Origin: Nitrososphaerota archaeon
GTDB taxonomy: Archaea > Thermoproteota > Nitrososphaeria_A > Caldarchaeales > JAVZCJ01
Direction: 5' to 3'
DNA length: 39,533 bases
Assembly: GCA_038817485.1 (NCBI GenBank)
Contig: JAWAZL010000014.1
Coordinates: 1-39,533 of the forward strand
Below, one piece after another: positions 11,233 to 19,575 of the stretch. Each line of letters begins with the position of its first letter. The stretch's first letter is position 1. A program made the position numbers and the translations under genes. The notes under the pieces are model-generated. The model had not been told where the DNA came from. It made no database searches and saw only the letters and a list, made by a program, of their open reading frames with translations.

Positions 11233-12450
11233 TTATATTTTTAATATTTCTTTAAAAATTTCTTCATTATTTGAGCCAATTAAAAGAATTTCATTCTTTA
11301 AAAATTTTAAAGATAAAAATCTATTTTTATTCTTCCAAACATCTTTTATAATTTCTATAGAATTAGTTTTATTCATCATTTCTCTAAAACAATTATAAAA
11401 TTCTAATGCATCTTCTTCTATATCCCAAACAATTTTCCAAAAGAAAACATAATTACTTACATTATTTTCTCTTATATAAAATGTAAAATTATCTCCACCC
11501 CATCCTTCAGCTGCTTTTTCTGATAAATTTTCATCAATCCAATTTGATAGCATAATTCTTAAAAAATATTCTCCATATGTTTCTGTTTTAGCAATAGACC
11601 ATTCTGAGATATTTAATTTTATTCCATCAACTTTTATTGGTTCTTCATATATCAAATATTTTTCTGGATGTAATATTTGCTCAGTTGATTTTGGAATATT
11701 TTCATACGCTTGATTAACTTTATTCCATCCTCCCAAATTATATAAAAATAAAACAAAGTTCTCGCCATATTTATAAGGGAAAAACAATATTTCATCTAAT
11801 ACATTTTTACTATTATAAGATTTGGAAAACAATAAACTTAAATTGATTTTATCCTCTTTTATTCTTTCAATAAATTTTTTAGAAGTTAACCCAGCATCAC
11901 CTTCAATAAGTGCAGACCATGCTTGTATTTCATCGTGAGTTTTAAGAGATGGAGTTTTAAAATATTTACTTTGAATAATATGAGTAATTTCATGAGATAA
12001 AATTTCATAAGCTTTCTCTAAATCATAAGGATTAAAATATTCTCTAACTATGTATATTACTCCACCACTTGTAGCAGCTAAAACATATCCTGATTGTTTA
12101 ATCGTAGCTTCTTTTAAACTAATATTTTCAGGAATTAAAAAAAGAGCTTTATATATTTCTTCTTTAATCTCAATCTCTTTTAAAGAAATTTCAACTTGTT
12201 TCTTGCCCCAATTTTCTTTAACCCAATCTATCGTAACTATTTCAATTCTAGAATCGTTTGGGGGCTCTAAACCTCTAACTTCTTTAATATTAGATAAAAC
12301 ATTTTGGAAAATTTTTTCAGATTCTTTTCTATATTCGTCTGGAAAAATAATTTCACTTAAGAAATTTTTTATTTCATAATAATAAAAGCTAAATATGAAA
12401 CCAATTAATATGGATAGTATTATTGTTAATACTAATATTCTTTTTCTCAT
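11233..12450 (-). CDS. Membrane-anchored gluzincin-like metallopeptidase, surface-exposed
   Basis: A 405-residue protein with an N-terminal basic end and single hydrophobic helix (about 5-25), so it is either anchored outside the cell or secreted. The zinc motif is 'HEITH' at 153-157 and a downstream Glu183 in 'ALIEGDAGLTS' is at gluzincin-like spacing; the pattern HExxH...A..ALxEGDA is known from archaeal putative neutral zinc peptidases. The C-terminal half (about 220-405) has no motif I recognise; it includes 'AAEGWGGDNFTFYIRENN', which in that type of protein is a conserved W-G-G-D segment. The substrate is unknown. It lies beside the Thr-rich surface protein (80-base gap, same strand), so work on the cell envelope is plausible. 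Confidence 0.75.
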   Translation of the reverse strand: MRKRILVLTIILSILIGFIFSFYYYEIKNFLSEIIFPDEYRKESEKIFQNVLSNIKEVRGLEPPNDSRIEIVTIDWVKENWGKKQVEISLKEIEIKEEIYKALFLIPENISLKEATIKQSGYVLAATSGGVIYIVREYFNPYDLEKAYEILSHEITHIIQSKYFKTPSLKTHDEIQAWSALIEGDAGLTSKKFIERIKEDKINLSLLFSKSYNSKNVLDEILFFPYKYGENFVLFLYNLGGWNKVNQAYENIPKSTEQILHPEKYLIYEEPIKVDGIKLNISEWSIAKTETYGEYFLRIMLSNWIDENLSEKAAEGWGGDNFTFYIRENNVSNYVFFWKIVWDIEEDALEFYNCFREMMNKTNSIEIIKDVWKNKNRFLSLKFLKNEILLIGSNNEEIFKEILKI

Positions 12451-12530: not shown

Positions 12531-13526
12531 TTATCGGCGTTTTCGCATAATAAGATAAAGGAACATTATAATAGCGACTACAATGACGGCTATAATTCCC
12601 AAAGTCATTACATCAAAACCAGCTGGTGCTGTGGTTGTAGGAGTTATTGTAATCGGGGTTGTCGTCGTTATTGGAGTTTTAGTGGGTGTAGTTACTTCTG
12701 TAGTTGTAGGAGTTGTTAAAGGTGGAGGTGTAGCAGGTGTTTTTGTTGTAGTAATTACAATAGTTTCTGTTATCGTAGTCCCTGGTTTTATGATTACGCT
12801 TGTGATTGTAGTCCCTTTAACTACGCTTGATATATACTCAGTTGTTCCTGGAAAACTTATAGTAGTCTTATAAGTAGTGCCTTTTAAAGTTTCAGTTTGT
12901 ACAACAGTTGTTTCAATGGGTATCGGTAAAGTCATAGTAATTCCAGGAACAGTATAAGTTGCTCCTGGAATTGCTACATAAAAAGTCGCAGGTACTTTTT
13001 CTGCTATATAGCTCATTACTCTCTTAATAGTTATTTTATTGCAAGATTGTATAATTTCACCATAAATTGGAAAAGGCATTTTAATAGTAGTAATTCTGGG
13101 GATTTCCGTTTCAATTTCTACTGTAGCAACACCAGTTGTAGTTAAAATTGTTCCACCAGTTGTTTCTAAAAAAGTAGTAGCATATGTAGGAATTGTAATA
13201 ATTGTACTATAAGCTGTCCCTGGAACAGTAATAGTTGTTCCAGGAATGGAAAATACTGCTTCTGGTAAAGCTTTAATTGTTTTAATACATACTTGATCGG
13301 GTCGTTCTTCTTCCATAATGATTATATAACCTGGCATAATCATAGTTGCTATAATAGTAGTATCAGGTTGTTGAATTGTAGTAGTAATAGTTGTTCCAGG
13401 AATTGTAGTAACTTTAGTTGTTGTAATCGTAACAACTTGTTGGCCAATCACTATCTTTGTAAAAAATATAGAAATAATTACGATAATAGTCAAGTGCAAA
13501 ACTTTTTTAATAATATTTTTATTCAA
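12531..13526 (-). CDS. Thr-rich surface protein with signal peptide and C-terminal membrane anchor
   Basis: A 331-residue protein I do not recognise. It starts at TTG with a strong GAGAGGAG site just upstream. The N terminus (about 5-28) is a signal-like hydrophobic helix ending near 'FFTKIVIGQQ'. The body is built from variations of a P-G-T-T/A-x-T unit: 'IPGTTITTTI', 'IPGTTITVPGTAYST', 'IPGATYTVPGITMTLP', 'FPGTTEYISSVVKGTTITS', 'IKPGTTITETI'. A Thr/Pro-rich stalk (about 265-298) follows, then a C-terminal helix 'LGIIAVIVVAIIMFLYLIM' and the tail RKRR that stops transfer. Only two cysteines are seen, one in 'DQVCIKTIKALPEAV' and one in 'EIIQSCNKITIKR', and could form a disulfide. The Thr-rich stalk is a likely O-glycosylation region, as in archaeal S-layer stalks; this is inference. 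Confidence 0.7.
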   Translation of the reverse strand: MNKNIIKKVLHLTIIVIISIFFTKIVIGQQVVTITTTKVTTIPGTTITTTIQQPDTTIIATMIMPGYIIIMEEERPDQVCIKTIKALPEAVFSIPGTTITVPGTAYSTIITIPTYATTFLETTGGTILTTTGVATVEIETEIPRITTIKMPFPIYGEIIQSCNKITIKRVMSYIAEKVPATFYVAIPGATYTVPGITMTLPIPIETTVVQTETLKGTTYKTTISFPGTTEYISSVVKGTTITSVIIKPGTTITETIVITTTKTPATPPPLTTPTTTEVTTPTKTPITTTTPITITPTTTAPAGFDVMTLGIIAVIVVAIIMFLYLIMRKRR

Positions 13527-15130: not shown

Positions 15131-16612
15131 TTATGCTGGAATGTATCTGTATTCTTTATAATACATCCAAAACTCTATATAAGCATCTGGATCATCACTA
15201 GTAAAATGGCAATATGCATAAATCCAGACTGCATATTGATTTGGACCAGAATTTTTATCTCCCCACCATGCATTACCATTACCATGTGTATCATATTTAT
15301 AGCTTACCATTTCGATCCACCATCCAGAATCTGCAAGTTTAATTAATATATTTTGTTGATTTTTCTCATCTTTCCTTACAGCTTTCCAATACACATATCC
15401 GGTTTTTTCTTCACGACTATAAGAAGTGGTAGTTTGAGTGATCGTATAAGTTACAGTTGTGGTAGGAGGATTATAAGGAGATGTAGAATACCCAAAATAT
15501 CTTTTTAATTTATAATTTCCAAACATTGCAAATGATATTGAATTTGAAGTTGTTTCTAATATCTTTCTTATTTCATTTCCAAATTGATCCAATTCCCAAA
15601 GCTCCATTTTTGATACATACATATATAATTTTCCATATGCACCTATAGAATTATAGCCATTAGTTACATAAATTCTATCCCATTTCCAAAAACAAGGGAA
15701 TGATTTAAATGAATGAGATATTGTTAATAATATTCCTGCAGGATAAACATATTCTCCATCATCATATCTTCTTCCATAAGGATCGCTATTTGGTTGTATG
15801 CCATCTCCCCATACATCATGATAATGTTCATCATTACTTTGATCATCCTTCTCTCGTATTTTATACCATGTTGGCTTATCATCTCTTGGAGAAATTTGAA
15901 ATGGGCCATGAGATTCTATTTTTAAAGTATAATTTCCATAAAAAGTAGTGGTAAATGTTTGATTTATAGTTTCTGTAAAAGTAGTTCGATAGAATGTTAT
16001 TATTTCTCTTTCAGCAGTTTTAGTTATTGGCTTTACAGGATAATAAGCAGAACCAAACGTATTTCCAAGCATTGTATGTAAAGTAATGCATCTTATTTTA
16101 TTTTTGAAAAACCAGAAATCTTCTGCATATTTAGAATCATTTAATTTAAACGTGCTTATTATATCATTCCCTTTTAATACTATCTCTTCTCCTGCCTCTA
16201 AAACTATATTTAATTCTCCTTTAGAAATTATTCTATTATCCCAATCTTCTATTACAAAATAATCTATTACACTTGTTTTTCCCCATTGATTTGTAATAGT
16301 TATTCTTGTTTCATATTTTTTATTTATAAGTGATGTATTCGTAGCTATTATAGAAGTAGTTGTATTTAAAATTGTAGTATACGTTATTACAATACTAGAA
16401 TTTTCATATTTTTCATCTATGCTTATGTATATTCTTATTAATTCATTCCCAGCTTCAGCTTCACTTTTAATAGCTTCTTTTGAAGTAATAGATATTCTAC
16501 CAATTATTGTTATTCCTGTTATAAAACTTAAAATAATCATTAATAATATTAATGCTGTTATTAATGGATTAAAAATAGATGCTCTAACTTTCTTTTTACT
16601 TATTTTATTCAT
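15131..16612 (-). CDS. Large type IV pilin-like surface protein with C-terminal extension
   Basis: A 493-residue protein, last of a four-gene pilin-like operon. The N terminus has a basic stretch then a hydrophobic helix, 'KKKVRASIFNPLITALILLM', like an archaeal class III signal peptide followed by the pilin assembly helix. Residues about 60-195 match the beta domain of the 166-residue protein encoded upstream ('VIDYF' ... 'LHTMLGNTFGSAYYP'). Beyond about 200 comes an extension of some 290 residues with no family I recognise: a Thr-rich linker, a charged 'HYHDVWGDGIQPNSDPYGRR' segment, many Trp/Tyr residues, and a second Thr-rich linker. It is much longer than ordinary archaeal pilins (100-200 residues), so a tip or adhesive subunit is a reasonable inference. 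An AAAGGAG site directly precedes the ATG and follows a perfect hairpin. Confidence 0.7.
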   Translation of the reverse strand: MNKISKKKVRASIFNPLITALILLMIILSFITGITIIGRISITSKEAIKSEAEAGNELIRIYISIDEKYENSSIVITYTTILNTTTSIIATNTSLINKKYETRITITNQWGKTSVIDYFVIEDWDNRIISKGELNIVLEAGEEIVLKGNDIISTFKLNDSKYAEDFWFFKNKIRCITLHTMLGNTFGSAYYPVKPITKTAEREIITFYRTTFTETINQTFTTTFYGNYTLKIESHGPFQISPRDDKPTWYKIREKDDQSNDEHYHDVWGDGIQPNSDPYGRRYDDGEYVYPAGILLTISHSFKSFPCFWKWDRIYVTNGYNSIGAYGKLYMYVSKMELWELDQFGNEIRKILETTSNSISFAMFGNYKLKRYFGYSTSPYNPPTTTVTYTITQTTTSYSREEKTGYVYWKAVRKDEKNQQNILIKLADSGWWIEMVSYKYDTHGNGNAWWGDKNSGPNQYAVWIYAYCHFTSDDPDAYIEFWMYYKEYRYIPA

Positions 16613-16621
16613 TTCTCCTTT

Positions 16622-16650
16622 CTTTCTTTAAGTGTTCAACTTAAAGAAAG
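16622..16650 (-). repeat. Perfect 12-bp hairpin inside the pilin-like operon
   Basis: CTTTCTTTAAGT (16622-16633) and ACTTAAAGAAAG (16639-16650) are exact reverse complements with a 5-base loop. The hairpin fills most of the 41-base gap between the third and fourth genes, and on the minus strand the ribosome binding site AAAGGAG of the fourth gene follows at once. No T-run follows on the minus strand, so it is not a standard terminator; an RNA processing, stability or translation-control element fits better. Confidence 0.7.
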
Positions 16651-16653
16651 GGT

Positions 16654-17154
16654 TTAATTAAATTCTAAATGGGGTATTTCATATTTAGAAGTAAATAAAT
16701 TTCCATTTATAGTATGAAAAACTATTAATTCAATGTATTTCTTAAAAATACGCCAATCATTCATATATTCAGGTAAACCAATCTTTTTAATATCAATATT
16801 CTTTTTATCTCCTTTCTCTATTTTTAAATTTATTATCCCCTTAATCAATAACTTTCCATCTTTTGAAATAATATAGAAATAATCTATTACAACATCACAT
16901 CCAGAAAGATTTACTATTAAAATGTTTGTGTTACTTGAATTTTTCCATCCATATTTTGTTATGCTTCCATTATAAATATAAATTTCTAAATTTTCTTTCA
17001 TTTTTTCATTCTTCATCATATGTTGCATTTCTGCTTTTTCTTGAATTTTAGAAAATCCAATTCCAATGAATAAAAATGATATGGAAAACATTGTAACTAT
17101 TATTATAATCATTGGAATGAAAATTATGCTTATTCCATATTCTTTTTTATTCAT
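16654..17154 (-). CDS. Type IV pilin-like protein
   Basis: A 166-residue protein with a short basic N terminus 'MNKKEYG' and a long hydrophobic helix 'ISIIFIPMIIIIVTMFSISF', as in archaeal pilins processed by a class III signal peptidase. The extracellular part is a small beta domain: 'CDVVIDYFYIISKDGKLLIK', 'INLKIEKGDKKNI' and 'IVFHTINGNLFTSKYEI' align by eye with the 493-residue and 230-residue products of the same operon. It overlaps the upstream gene by 8 bases (ATGAATAA). Its length is normal for a pilin. No PilB-type ATPase or PilC-type membrane protein lies in the window, so assembly would use machinery encoded elsewhere. Confidence 0.7.
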   Translation of the reverse strand: MNKKEYGISIIFIPMIIIIVTMFSISFLFIGIGFSKIQEKAEMQHMMKNEKMKENLEIYIYNGSITKYGWKNSSNTNILIVNLSGCDVVIDYFYIISKDGKLLIKGIINLKIEKGDKKNIDIKKIGLPEYMNDWRIFKKYIELIVFHTINGNLFTSKYEIPHLEFN

Positions 17155-17839
17155 ACAAAAACCTTTTTAGGAGAATTCTTATAGATTTTTTATTCTTTAT
17201 TTTAAAGTTCAAGAAAGAGTTTATAAAACATGACGCTATTAAGAAAATATTTTTCATGAATTCTAAAGGAATGGAACTAATAGTTACTCCTTCTTTTATT
17301 ATTTGAATAGAAGTATAATTCATTGTAGTTGTAACATAAGAAGTGACCGTTATAGTTAGTGTATAAATAGAAGTTAAAATAGTAGAAATATAGGAGGTTA
17401 GTGTTATTTCACTTGGTAAATTTTCAATCCAAATTCTTTCCATTGTAGTAAATTCTTTCTTAGTAAATTTAAAAAAATTTCCAGACAATGTTTCAATCAT
17501 TAAGTTTTTTCCATATGGTATTAAAATTTCTCTCTTCTCATGTGGATTAATAATTATTAAATCATTTGATCTATCTATAATATTATCATCTACATATATT
17601 CTCTTTATCGCTATTTTTATTTCTCCATCATTTGATAAAATACAATACTCTGGTCCCCAATAAATTAATGATATTTTCTCTAATATTTTTCCCTCTTCTT
17701 TTTCTAATTCACTTGTTATAACTTTACTTGTTATCTTTGTTTGATAAATGGAAAAGTAAGCTATAAAGCTTCCAATTGATAGAACAACTATTGTTAAAGC
17801 AATATATGATAACACATTACTTATTCCTTTTTTATTCAT
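17147..17839 (-). CDS. Type IV pilin-like protein with Thr-rich linker and second membrane helix
   Basis: A 230-residue protein with the clearest class III signal of the group: 'MNKKGISNVLSYIALTIVVL', where cleavage is expected after Gly5. A pilin-like beta domain (about 45-130) ends with 'LMIETLSGNFFKFTKKEF', similar to the HTxxGNxF segment of the two downstream proteins. A Thr/Ser-rich segment (about 140-180, 'TLTITVTSYVTTTMNYTS') follows, then a second hydrophobic helix 'FMKNIFLIASCFINSFLNF' and a strongly basic tail. A C-terminal anchor is unusual for a pilin and would tether the subunit or serve as an assembly base. Its ATG overlaps the stop of the first gene in ATGA. Confidence 0.68.
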   Translation of the reverse strand: MNKKGISNVLSYIALTIVVLSIGSFIAYFSIYQTKITSKVITSELEKEEGKILEKISLIYWGPEYCILSNDGEIKIAIKRIYVDDNIIDRSNDLIIINPHEKREILIPYGKNLMIETLSGNFFKFTKKEFTTMERIWIENLPSEITLTSYISTILTSIYTLTITVTSYVTTTMNYTSIQIIKEGVTISSIPLEFMKNIFLIASCFINSFLNFKIKNKKSIRILLKRFLYE

Positions 17840-18264
17840 GGCATTACCACTACGTTTGTAATTGTTTCTATCGTTTTTCCATCTTGATCTATTGAACCAA
17901 CAATTATTGTAAGTTTTTTACCAATTTCTTGATAAGGAATAATTGCTTCAATTTCATAGTTTTCTGATGGTTTAAGATTTTTTGAACCAATCCAAATATT
18001 TCCAATTTCCTTAATGCTTATTGCACATAATGTAATTTTTGTATTTCCAATATTTGCAATATTCATTTTTATTAACGTTTTTCCATTCCATTGAGTTGCT
18101 CTTGCTTCAATTATTTCAATTTTAGGATTGTAAGAAAGATTTTTAGAATATGTCATTGAAAATAACCCTGTTAATGAAATAATTGAAAATGAAATAATTA
18201 TTAATAATATTTCTGAAAATATTCTTGACATCGCTTTATTTAAAAATTTTACTTTATACATCAT
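17836..18264 (-). CDS. Type IV pilin-like protein, first gene of the operon
   Basis: A 142-residue protein. A basic leader 'MMYKVKFLNKAMSRIFSEI' runs into the helix 'LLIIISFSIISLTGLFSM', typical of archaeal pilins or archaellum-like subunits. The rest is a single beta domain: 'NIANIGNTKITLCAISIKEI' and 'KKLTIIVGSIDQDGKTIETI' resemble the 'n.G...i.l..i.......g' strands of such domains. A TATA box about 30 bases upstream of the ATG marks it as the head of the four-gene operon. It is the most ordinary of the four and might be the major subunit; that is inference. Confidence 0.65.
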   Translation of the reverse strand: MMYKVKFLNKAMSRIFSEILLIIISFSIISLTGLFSMTYSKNLSYNPKIEIIEARATQWNGKTLIKMNIANIGNTKITLCAISIKEIGNIWIGSKNLKPSENYEIEAIIPYQEIGKKLTIIVGSIDQDGKTIETITNVVVMP

Positions 18265-18290: not shown

Positions 18291-18302
18291 TATTTATAAA
18301 AA
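18291..18302 (-). promoter_or_regulatory. TATA box of the pilin-like operon
   Basis: The minus strand reads TTTTTATAAATA, centred about 33 bases before the ATG at 18264. Transcription would start about 7 bases before the ATG, giving a nearly leaderless operon mRNA. Confidence 0.5.
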
Positions 18303-18435: not shown

Positions 18436-19575
18436 TTATTTTTCTAATATTATAATGCTCTCTCTTGCTTTACCAATTTTTATTGTTCTTTCACGTGTAG
18501 CAACTCTTTCATTTACGACTATTATTTTTTCAATTTTAAAACCTATGTCTTTAGCAATTTTAGCTAAAAGTATATCTGATTCAACAATTCTATTTGGAAA
18601 TACTCCTTCTGCAACTACTATAGCTGCCTTACCATTATTTTTTAAAACTCTATACATTTCATTTAAAGCCATTTTCATATCATAAAAATATGCTTTTGCA
18701 ATATCTGGTAAATTTAATTCAGGAAAAACATCTTTAACATTTTTAAGATTTAAACCTATGTATGATCTTACAGGATCAACTTTTACATGTCCAAAAAATA
18801 ATTCATATTCTATTCTATACATTTTTGTATATTCGATTTTATTTAAATAGGGTGGAGAAGTAATTATTGCATCAAAGAAGCTATCCTCTAGAAAATCTAA
18901 TTTTCTAGCATCTCCAAGCCTTATGTTTAATTCGCATTTTTTAAATTCAATTTTTTCAATATCTTTAATCATTCTTTTTACTATTCTTTTAAAATATTTT
19001 CTAAAAGGCGGAACAGGTTTTTTAAAAATTTTTATTACTGCTCCATTTTTAAAAGCGTAAGAAACATCCATTGCAGATTTCATTAATGCAAGAGTAAAGA
19101 AATTTTTAATTTTAATATCTTCAATTTCTCTAATTATTTCACGAAAGAAAATTATATCTTCAAGGGAATATTTTGAAAATGCTTTTCTTATAAATGGATT
19201 TATAGAAGCTAAGCTAGGTTTTTTAAATTTTTCACTAAATATTTTTTTAGCATATTCTTTTAATTCGTTCATTTCATAATCAGCAGTTTTTACTTGAGAA
19301 ACAAAAATTGCAAGAGGAGCTGCATCTACTCCTACTCCATTTATTCCTTTTTCTTTAGCTGCTAAAAGAGTTGTTCCAACTCCTAAAAATGGATCTAAAA
19401 TCCAATTCCCCTCTTTTAATTTAAAATAATCCATAAATTTTATTACGAAATCTCTTGAAAACCCCTCTTTAAAATAAAACCAATTATATATTGGCAATTT
19501 TTCATTAGGAATAAAAGTAACTAATTTTCCTAAATCATATTTTTTCTCTATTTTAAAATTACAATCCTCAAACAT
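18436..19575 (-). CDS. SAM-dependent DNA/RNA methyltransferase (N4/N6 type), solitary
   Basis: A 379-residue amino-methyltransferase. Motif I (SAM binding) is 'ILDPFLGVGTT' at 59-69, followed by 'GVGVDAAPLAIFVSQV'. The catalytic motif IV is 'TSPPYLNKIEYTKMYRIEYE' starting at 239, and 'RLGDARKLDFLEDSFFDAII' lies between. Motif I precedes motif IV; in many DNA modification methylases with a TSPPY motif the order is the reverse. By family knowledge TSPPY enzymes methylate the exocyclic amine of cytosine or adenine (DNA), while related archaeal enzymes act on guanine in tRNA. No restriction endonuclease or specificity gene is nearby, so it is an orphan methylase, either housekeeping DNA methylation or RNA modification. 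It is complete and AT-rich like its surroundings. Confidence 0.78.
   Translation of the reverse strand: MFEDCNFKIEKKYDLGKLVTFIPNEKLPIYNWFYFKEGFSRDFVIKFMDYFKLKEGNWILDPFLGVGTTLLAAKEKGINGVGVDAAPLAIFVSQVKTADYEMNELKEYAKKIFSEKFKKPSLASINPFIRKAFSKYSLEDIIFFREIIREIEDIKIKNFFTLALMKSAMDVSYAFKNGAVIKIFKKPVPPFRKYFKRIVKRMIKDIEKIEFKKCELNIRLGDARKLDFLEDSFFDAIITSPPYLNKIEYTKMYRIEYELFFGHVKVDPVRSYIGLNLKNVKDVFPELNLPDIAKAYFYDMKMALNEMYRVLKNNGKAAIVVAEGVFPNRIVESDILLAKIAKDIGFKIEKIIVVNERVATRERTIKIGKARESIIILEK

Follow-up and report, generated by a model that had tools for sequence, protein, structure and literature searches.

Among described archaeal systems, the closest to the locus considered here are Ups and Bas of Sulfolobales. 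Ups (UpsX, E, F, A, and B) shows ultraviolet induction and DNA exchange, and UpsA and UpsB both appear to be major pilins (PMC3892339); Bas (BasA, B, C, E, and F) combines several small pilins with one ATPase and one TadC. Pilin loci without an ATPase or TadC gene have also been described. Their partner was inferred from genomes in Vulcanisaeta, Caldivirga, and Thermofilum (PMC4858521) and established by genetics for the unlinked adhesion pilins pilA1-6 of Haloferax volcanii (PMC4371748), and a 2016 paper argued that pilin sets are used in a modular way (PMC4858521). For Aigarchaeota, what we found on type IV pili, in the text of PMC10547907 examined, is a general mention of pilin genes only. 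Here we describe an operon of four genes at 15131–18264 of a 39,533-nucleotide stretch of DNA (GenBank assembly GCA_038817485.1, contig JAWAZL010000014.1, positions 1–39,533; "the window" below is this whole stretch) from a hot-spring Nitrososphaerota archaeon of the poorly studied order Caldarchaeales (formerly Aigarchaeota). The encoded proteins, called p142, p230, p166, and p493 after their lengths in amino acids, would with a probability of about 0.78 serve an archaeal type IV pilus of the Ups/Bas type as its filament and accessory pilins, the pilus locus having been split in this lineage. That archaeal pilin loci can lack an ATPase and TadC is already known; what is added is that sister families keep the linked state, which names the partner.

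Pilin genes and assembly machinery in separate loci

The first-pass annotation of this DNA had seen no assembly genes beside the operon, and none of the ATPase/TadC-type matches of the genome (G000; 1.44 Mb, 38 contigs) falls in the window. Elsewhere, the genome has three ATPase/platform systems of the pilus type, two on contig C11 (sysA and sysB) and one, the Tad-like sysC, on contig C4, as well as two A24 prepilin peptidases (contigs C9 and C4). sysB (29.2–34.3 kb of C11) comprises an UpsA-like pilin (NCBIfam UpsA, 3.9e-16), an ATPase, a TadC, and a 355-residue anchored protein with a B-repeat domain. An ATPase match on contig C25 was set aside because it is only weakly similar to the pilus ATPases.

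Profile searches with p142 and with the p166/p493 family both led to Candidatus (Ca.) Caldarchaeum subterraneum (G007; CALHAG010000002) and Ca. Terraquivivens tikiterensis (G015; NDWU01000008), which belong to other families of Caldarchaeales; weak matches of the p166/p493 profile in G285 and G104 were not used. Each of the two genomes carries one continuous same-strand cluster of UpsA-like pilins, a p230-like pilin, p166/p493-like pilins, large proteins, an ATPase, and TadC. With E values computed at the scale of whole genomes, p230 finds Caldarchaeum p133 (9e-10) and Terraquivivens p141 (1e-6), p166 finds Terraquivivens p177 (1.5e-5), and the N-terminal part of p493 finds Caldarchaeum p618 (2e-4); the match between p142 and Caldarchaeum p146 is weak (phmmer 4.5e-5, blastp 0.013). 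The matches of sysB to these clusters are at or better than 1e-104 for the ATPase, 1e-71 for TadC, and 1e-16 for the 355-residue protein (p763, 2e-16). In trees of the ATPase and of TadC, sysB joins exactly the Caldarchaeum and Terraquivivens clusters (Shimodaira–Hasegawa-like approximate likelihood ratio support of 99 and 96), and the sysB ATPase and TadC are orthologous to the linked pair in these two families. With a profile of the sysB-type TadC, 4 of the 44 genomes of the order score at least 917 bits, and the next genome 99 bits; because the four genomes singled out are also those from which the profile was made, its informative part is the gap between 917 and 99 bits. The same four genomes are those with a p166/p493-type match.

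From the trees and pairwise matches together, we therefore read the operon plus sysB as one cluster cut in two. The absence of assembly genes beside the operon would reflect a lineage-specific split of an Ups/Bas-type pilus locus, and the linked versions in the sister families suggest that the split state is derived. In the relatives' clusters, p230 and one or both of p166 and p493 have counterparts, and p142 has a weak one; the gene order is the same, and a sysB-type ATPase and TadC are present. Unlike here, pilins and machine stand in one cluster there, with more pilins and larger accessory proteins, and the C-terminal parts of their large subunits differ from that of p493. Conservation within the genus was assessed by comparing G000 with one other genome (G001), both being draft metagenome-assembled genomes. 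The operon and sysB are apart in each, by at least ~24 kb in G000 and by at least ~98 kb in G001, the latter because both lie well inside their own contigs (166 and 104 kb). Assembly by machinery encoded elsewhere, as the first-pass annotation supposed, agrees with these results, but a free-standing fibre borrowing generic machinery does not, because the sister families still carry pilins and machine together and a probable dedicated partner can be named: most likely, sysB assembles the pilus from the operon's subunits. As in the loci of Vulcanisaeta, Caldivirga, Thermofilum, and H. volcanii, the pilin genes are unlinked to the machine; those loci involve other pilin families and lineages, whereas here linked sister-family versions point to the partner. 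An orphan pilin operon thereby becomes a testable pair of loci, and the case clearly illustrates how archaeal type IV pili have evolved in this order in a modular way, by splitting.

The same association recurs more widely. Relatives of p230 were found by profile in 93 of 398 Thermoproteota genomes, and where a genome had both such a relative and a sysB-like TadC, the two genes lay within 10 kb in 23 of 32 cases. Across Thermoproteota, a p230-like gene lies no more than 10 kb from 21 of the 44 TadCs scoring above 150 bits versus 2 of the 99 lower-scoring ones (Fisher p = 4e-11, uncorrected for kinship). The p230 family profile also matches BasA and genes beside UpsF in Sulfolobales; in the Sulfolobales-type genome G392, the p230-type matches are the curated BasA and a gene beside UpsF. 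A layout of two or three small pilins, one large class III-like protein (405–850 residues), an ATPase, and TadC recurs in loci L090, L093, L095, and L099, and the window operon plus sysB would reproduce it.

By curated cut-offs the operon and sysB belong to neither Ups nor Bas, yet their predicted working is Ups/Bas-like: the machine is of an ordinary kind, and what stands out is the unusual arrangement of its genes and one large, unfamiliar subunit, p493. As in Ups, an UpsA-like pilin is followed by an UpsB-like one with the same processing sites, and the ATPase and TadC are of the same wider family. Unlike Ups, the scores of operon and sysB all fall under the equivalog cut-offs (sysB reaches 191 of 400 bits for UpsF), no UpsX adjoins sysB, pilins and machine are unlinked, and there is the extra p166/p493 family; moreover, ultraviolet induction, cell aggregation, and DNA exchange are properties of Ups itself, to which we liken the operon by its genes. 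With Bas, the pair of loci shares several small pilins, one ATPase, and one TadC, p230 being BasA-like and p142 UpsA/BasC-like, but sysB reaches 288 of 1000 bits for BasE and 150 of 1300 bits for BasF, far under the curated cut-offs, and the large subunit p493 has no match to a substrate-binding domain. Against the archaellum ATPase model, the sysB ATPase scores 288 of 550 bits, also under the cut-off; next to the operon and next to sysB, no archaellum genes came to notice, although no search was aimed at them.

The four subunits

All four minus-strand open reading frames were confirmed at the positions and lengths first annotated (142, 230, 166, and 493 residues), with an ATGA overlap of p142 and p230 at 17836–17839, an 8-base overlap of p230 and p166 at 17147–17154, and 41 bases between p166 and p493. 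In G001, the four-gene order, the overlaps, and the surroundings are all kept, and the proteins have 141, 230, 167, and 493 residues. Amino-acid identities between the two genomes are 89% for p142, 81% for p230, 88% for p166, and 92% for p493, and the ratios of nonsynonymous to synonymous substitution (~0.28, ~0.31, ~0.18, and ~0.34, respectively) indicate purifying selection. Because order, overlaps, and sizes are kept and selection is purifying, the four reading frames are not products of chance. Together with sequence profiles and a fold match described below, this synteny, which extends to clustered counterparts of most of the set in the two other families, supports the proposal that the operon encodes pilin-like proteins, differing in length, from which a surface fibre is built.

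p142, p230, and the N-terminal part common to p166 and p493 are related to archaeal pilins. The operon's first gene, p142 (17836–18264), encodes an UpsA/BasC-like class III pilin (NCBIfam UpsA, 5.6e-7) that is homologous to the sysB pilin; a match to DUF2393 (1.4e-6) was judged incidental. In p230 (17147–17839), an UpsB/BasA-like class III pilin domain (~residues 1–135; NCBIfam UpsB, 2.8e-4) is followed by a lineage-specific tail (17150–17422) that is threonine-rich and ends in a hydrophobic segment and basic residues; this tail is present in both genus members and absent from Caldarchaeum p133 and Terraquivivens p141. Both NCBIfam scores are under the curated equivalog cut-offs (29.8 of 130 bits for p142 and 21 of 70 bits for p230), and no curated-level Pfam or NCBIfam assignment was obtained for p166, p230, or p493. 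The p142 family profile matches PDB entry 8fk7, listed in the structure library as the flagellar-like archaeal type IV pilus of Pyrobaculum calidifontis, at 1.7e-5, and the p230 family profile also matches 8fk7 by sequence. Because p142 and p230 resemble Ups/Bas-type filament pilins, the suggestion that the subunits are minor pilins need not hold for all of them.

The first-pass annotation had assigned a leader of class III type to each of the four genes. We applied a strict rule, a charged residue at -2 and G, A, or S at -1 followed by an uncharged H-domain, and found such sites in p142, p230, and p493 and in no other of the 37 window genes. Cleavage is predicted after KA in p142 (leader 18232–18264; KA|MS, and KA|IS in G001), after KG in p230 (17825–17839; KG|IS), and after RA in p493 (16580–16612; RA|SI). 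The processing sites of UpsA and UpsB in S. acidocaldarius, KAIS and KGIS (PMC4371748 Table 1), are matched by p142 of G001 and by p230, respectively. The p166 leader, MNKKEYG|IS (17134–17154), has an uncharged -2 residue and departs from the strict rule, so that the original assignment holds for three of the four genes; YG|IS is also found in the sysB pilin. That pilin (L017 11867–12319, contig C11) probably starts later than listed: its reading frame in G001 is preceded by a stop and begins MKNKIYGIS, giving YG|IS as in p166.

A beta-domain block had been attributed to the last three proteins. It is common to p166 (16654–17154) and p493 (15131–16612), whose N-terminal parts form one family (38% identity over 89 residues, E ~1e-10), but p230, in which only a vague 'TLSGNFF' resembles it, was rejected as a bearer of the domain and belongs to the different, UpsB/BasA-like pilin family. 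The AlphaFold2 model of p166 (predicted local distance difference test score, pLDDT, 79) combines a long helix at the N-terminus with a beta domain that carries the VIDYF and HTxxGNxF motifs; its best Foldseek match in the PDB is the archaeal pilus subunit 8fk7 (E 7.4e-5, probability 1.00), with modest template-modelling scores of 0.38–0.45, and a pilus of Pyrobaculum arsenaticum stands lower in the match list. In p493, a large class III protein, the common beta domain occupies ~residues 60–192 (16037–16435), and residues 200–493 (15134–16015), with threonine-rich linkers and a part rich in tryptophan and tyrosine, are a candidate binding domain. A Pfam search of p493 gave no family for this C-terminal region and no substrate-binding domain; a full-length AlphaFold2 model made from two sequences was unusable (pLDDT 30), and an adenosine deaminase match (0.008) was judged incidental. 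With p493 alone as query, matches were confined to the same genus among 61 genomes, and a contig scan gave none.

Between p166 and p493, just before the ribosome-site-like sequence AAAGGAGAA, lies a perfect 12-bp inverted repeat with a 5-nucleotide loop (16622–16650), of a kind for which none is expected by chance in the window. Its stem is identical and its loop changed in G001, and it is single-copy in both genomes. This hairpin might act in RNA processing, set dosage, or be bound by a protein.

Weighing the pilus reading and its alternatives

If the operon and sysB form one Ups/Bas-type pilus system, Sec would export the prepilins, a PibD-type peptidase would trim their leaders just before the hydrophobic helix, and the sysB ATPase would drive the TadC platform, so that the helices stack into a filament whose subunits are UpsA/UpsB-like. 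p166 and p493 would be low-copy pilins with a common beta domain. p493 would be a large, rare, probably adhesive subunit that exposes its C-terminal region, probably at the tip or projecting, and through it adheres or binds a ligand. A more elaborate version, in which p166 and p493 with p230 make up a lineage-specific tip complex with a new-fold adhesive domain at the C-terminus of p493, a dedicated unlinked ATPase/TadC, and a dose set by the hairpin, is speculative, and we consider it doubtful.

Besides the origin of the TadC profile, several points weigh against the split-pilus proposal. p166 is without the charged -2 residue, the ~290-residue C-terminal region of p493 is without a known fold, and Caldarchaeum p265, at the position of p166, gave no significant match. 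Taken alone, the matches of p142 and p493 to the Caldarchaeum cluster are weak, and their strength comes from position. The sysA machinery of the same genome could also accept the operon's pilins, and both the pairing and the pilus role are drawn from sequence, a structural model, and genomic position. Our gradings are also not exclusive, as a bindosome-like arrangement and the choice of machine can each overlap with the Ups/Bas-type pilus.

A bindosome-like display complex is the main rival, although we regard it as unlikely. Here, the small pilins would form a short base and p493 would be a class III surface-binding protein held near the membrane, with no long filament. Bas is the same kind of cluster (BasA-B-C-E-F), BasABC gave no visible pili, and the binding proteins displayed are much larger than pilins (PMC2910488, PMC4371748); p230 is BasA-like, and p493 is large. 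However, besides falling far short of the BasE and BasF cut-offs, sysB is nearer UpsF than BasF and bears a clear UpsA-like pilin, and p493 has no substrate-binding-protein domain in Pfam. Less probable still is assembly of the operon's subunits by sysA, by sysC, or by any of the genome's systems: pilins of archaea are regarded as able to work with more than one ATPase/TadC pair (PMC4858521) and sysA is also complete enough for pilin assembly, but sysA and sysC have pilin sets of their own, and homologues of the operon in other genomes adjoin sysB-type rather than sysA-type machinery. That the proteins are instead anchored in the membrane by N-terminal helices that stay uncleaved, and are associated with the wall or S-layer, is very improbable, as the atypical p166 leader, the threonine-rich p230 tail with its hydrophobic segment, and a threonine-rich anchored protein nearby (12531–13526) are set against the UpsA/UpsB profile matches, the class III sites of the other three proteins, the pilin fold match, and the presence of relatives in pilus clusters.

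Neighbouring genes and other pilin loci

A candidate promoter, TATAAATA (18291–18298, minus strand), lies ~27–34 bases before the p142 start; it is weak and in a 73% A+T context, and a similar TATAATA occurs in G001. The operon's same-strand upstream neighbour, 171 bases away and kept in G001, encodes an N6/N4-type methylase-like protein (18436–19575). On the other side, the protein encoded at 12531–13526 has a C-terminal transmembrane helix, an RKRR end, and no Pfam family, and resembles a wall or S-layer stalk protein. A 405-residue membrane-anchored protein (11233–12450) is likewise without a Pfam family, and a HEITH metalloprotease-like motif is seen in its G001 copy.

sysC (L018 7826–14498, contig C4) contains a 659-residue ATPase, two TadB/C-type proteins, a prepilin peptidase, and five pseudopilin-like genes. 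Stand-alone sysA-type pilin genes are scattered over contigs C26, C6, and C21 of G000 (L069, L070, L073) and C10 and C11 of G001 (L071, L072), some of them adjoining proteins of ~385–485 residues with an N-terminal signal and a C-terminal transmembrane helix; these genes are possibly alternative sysA pilins.

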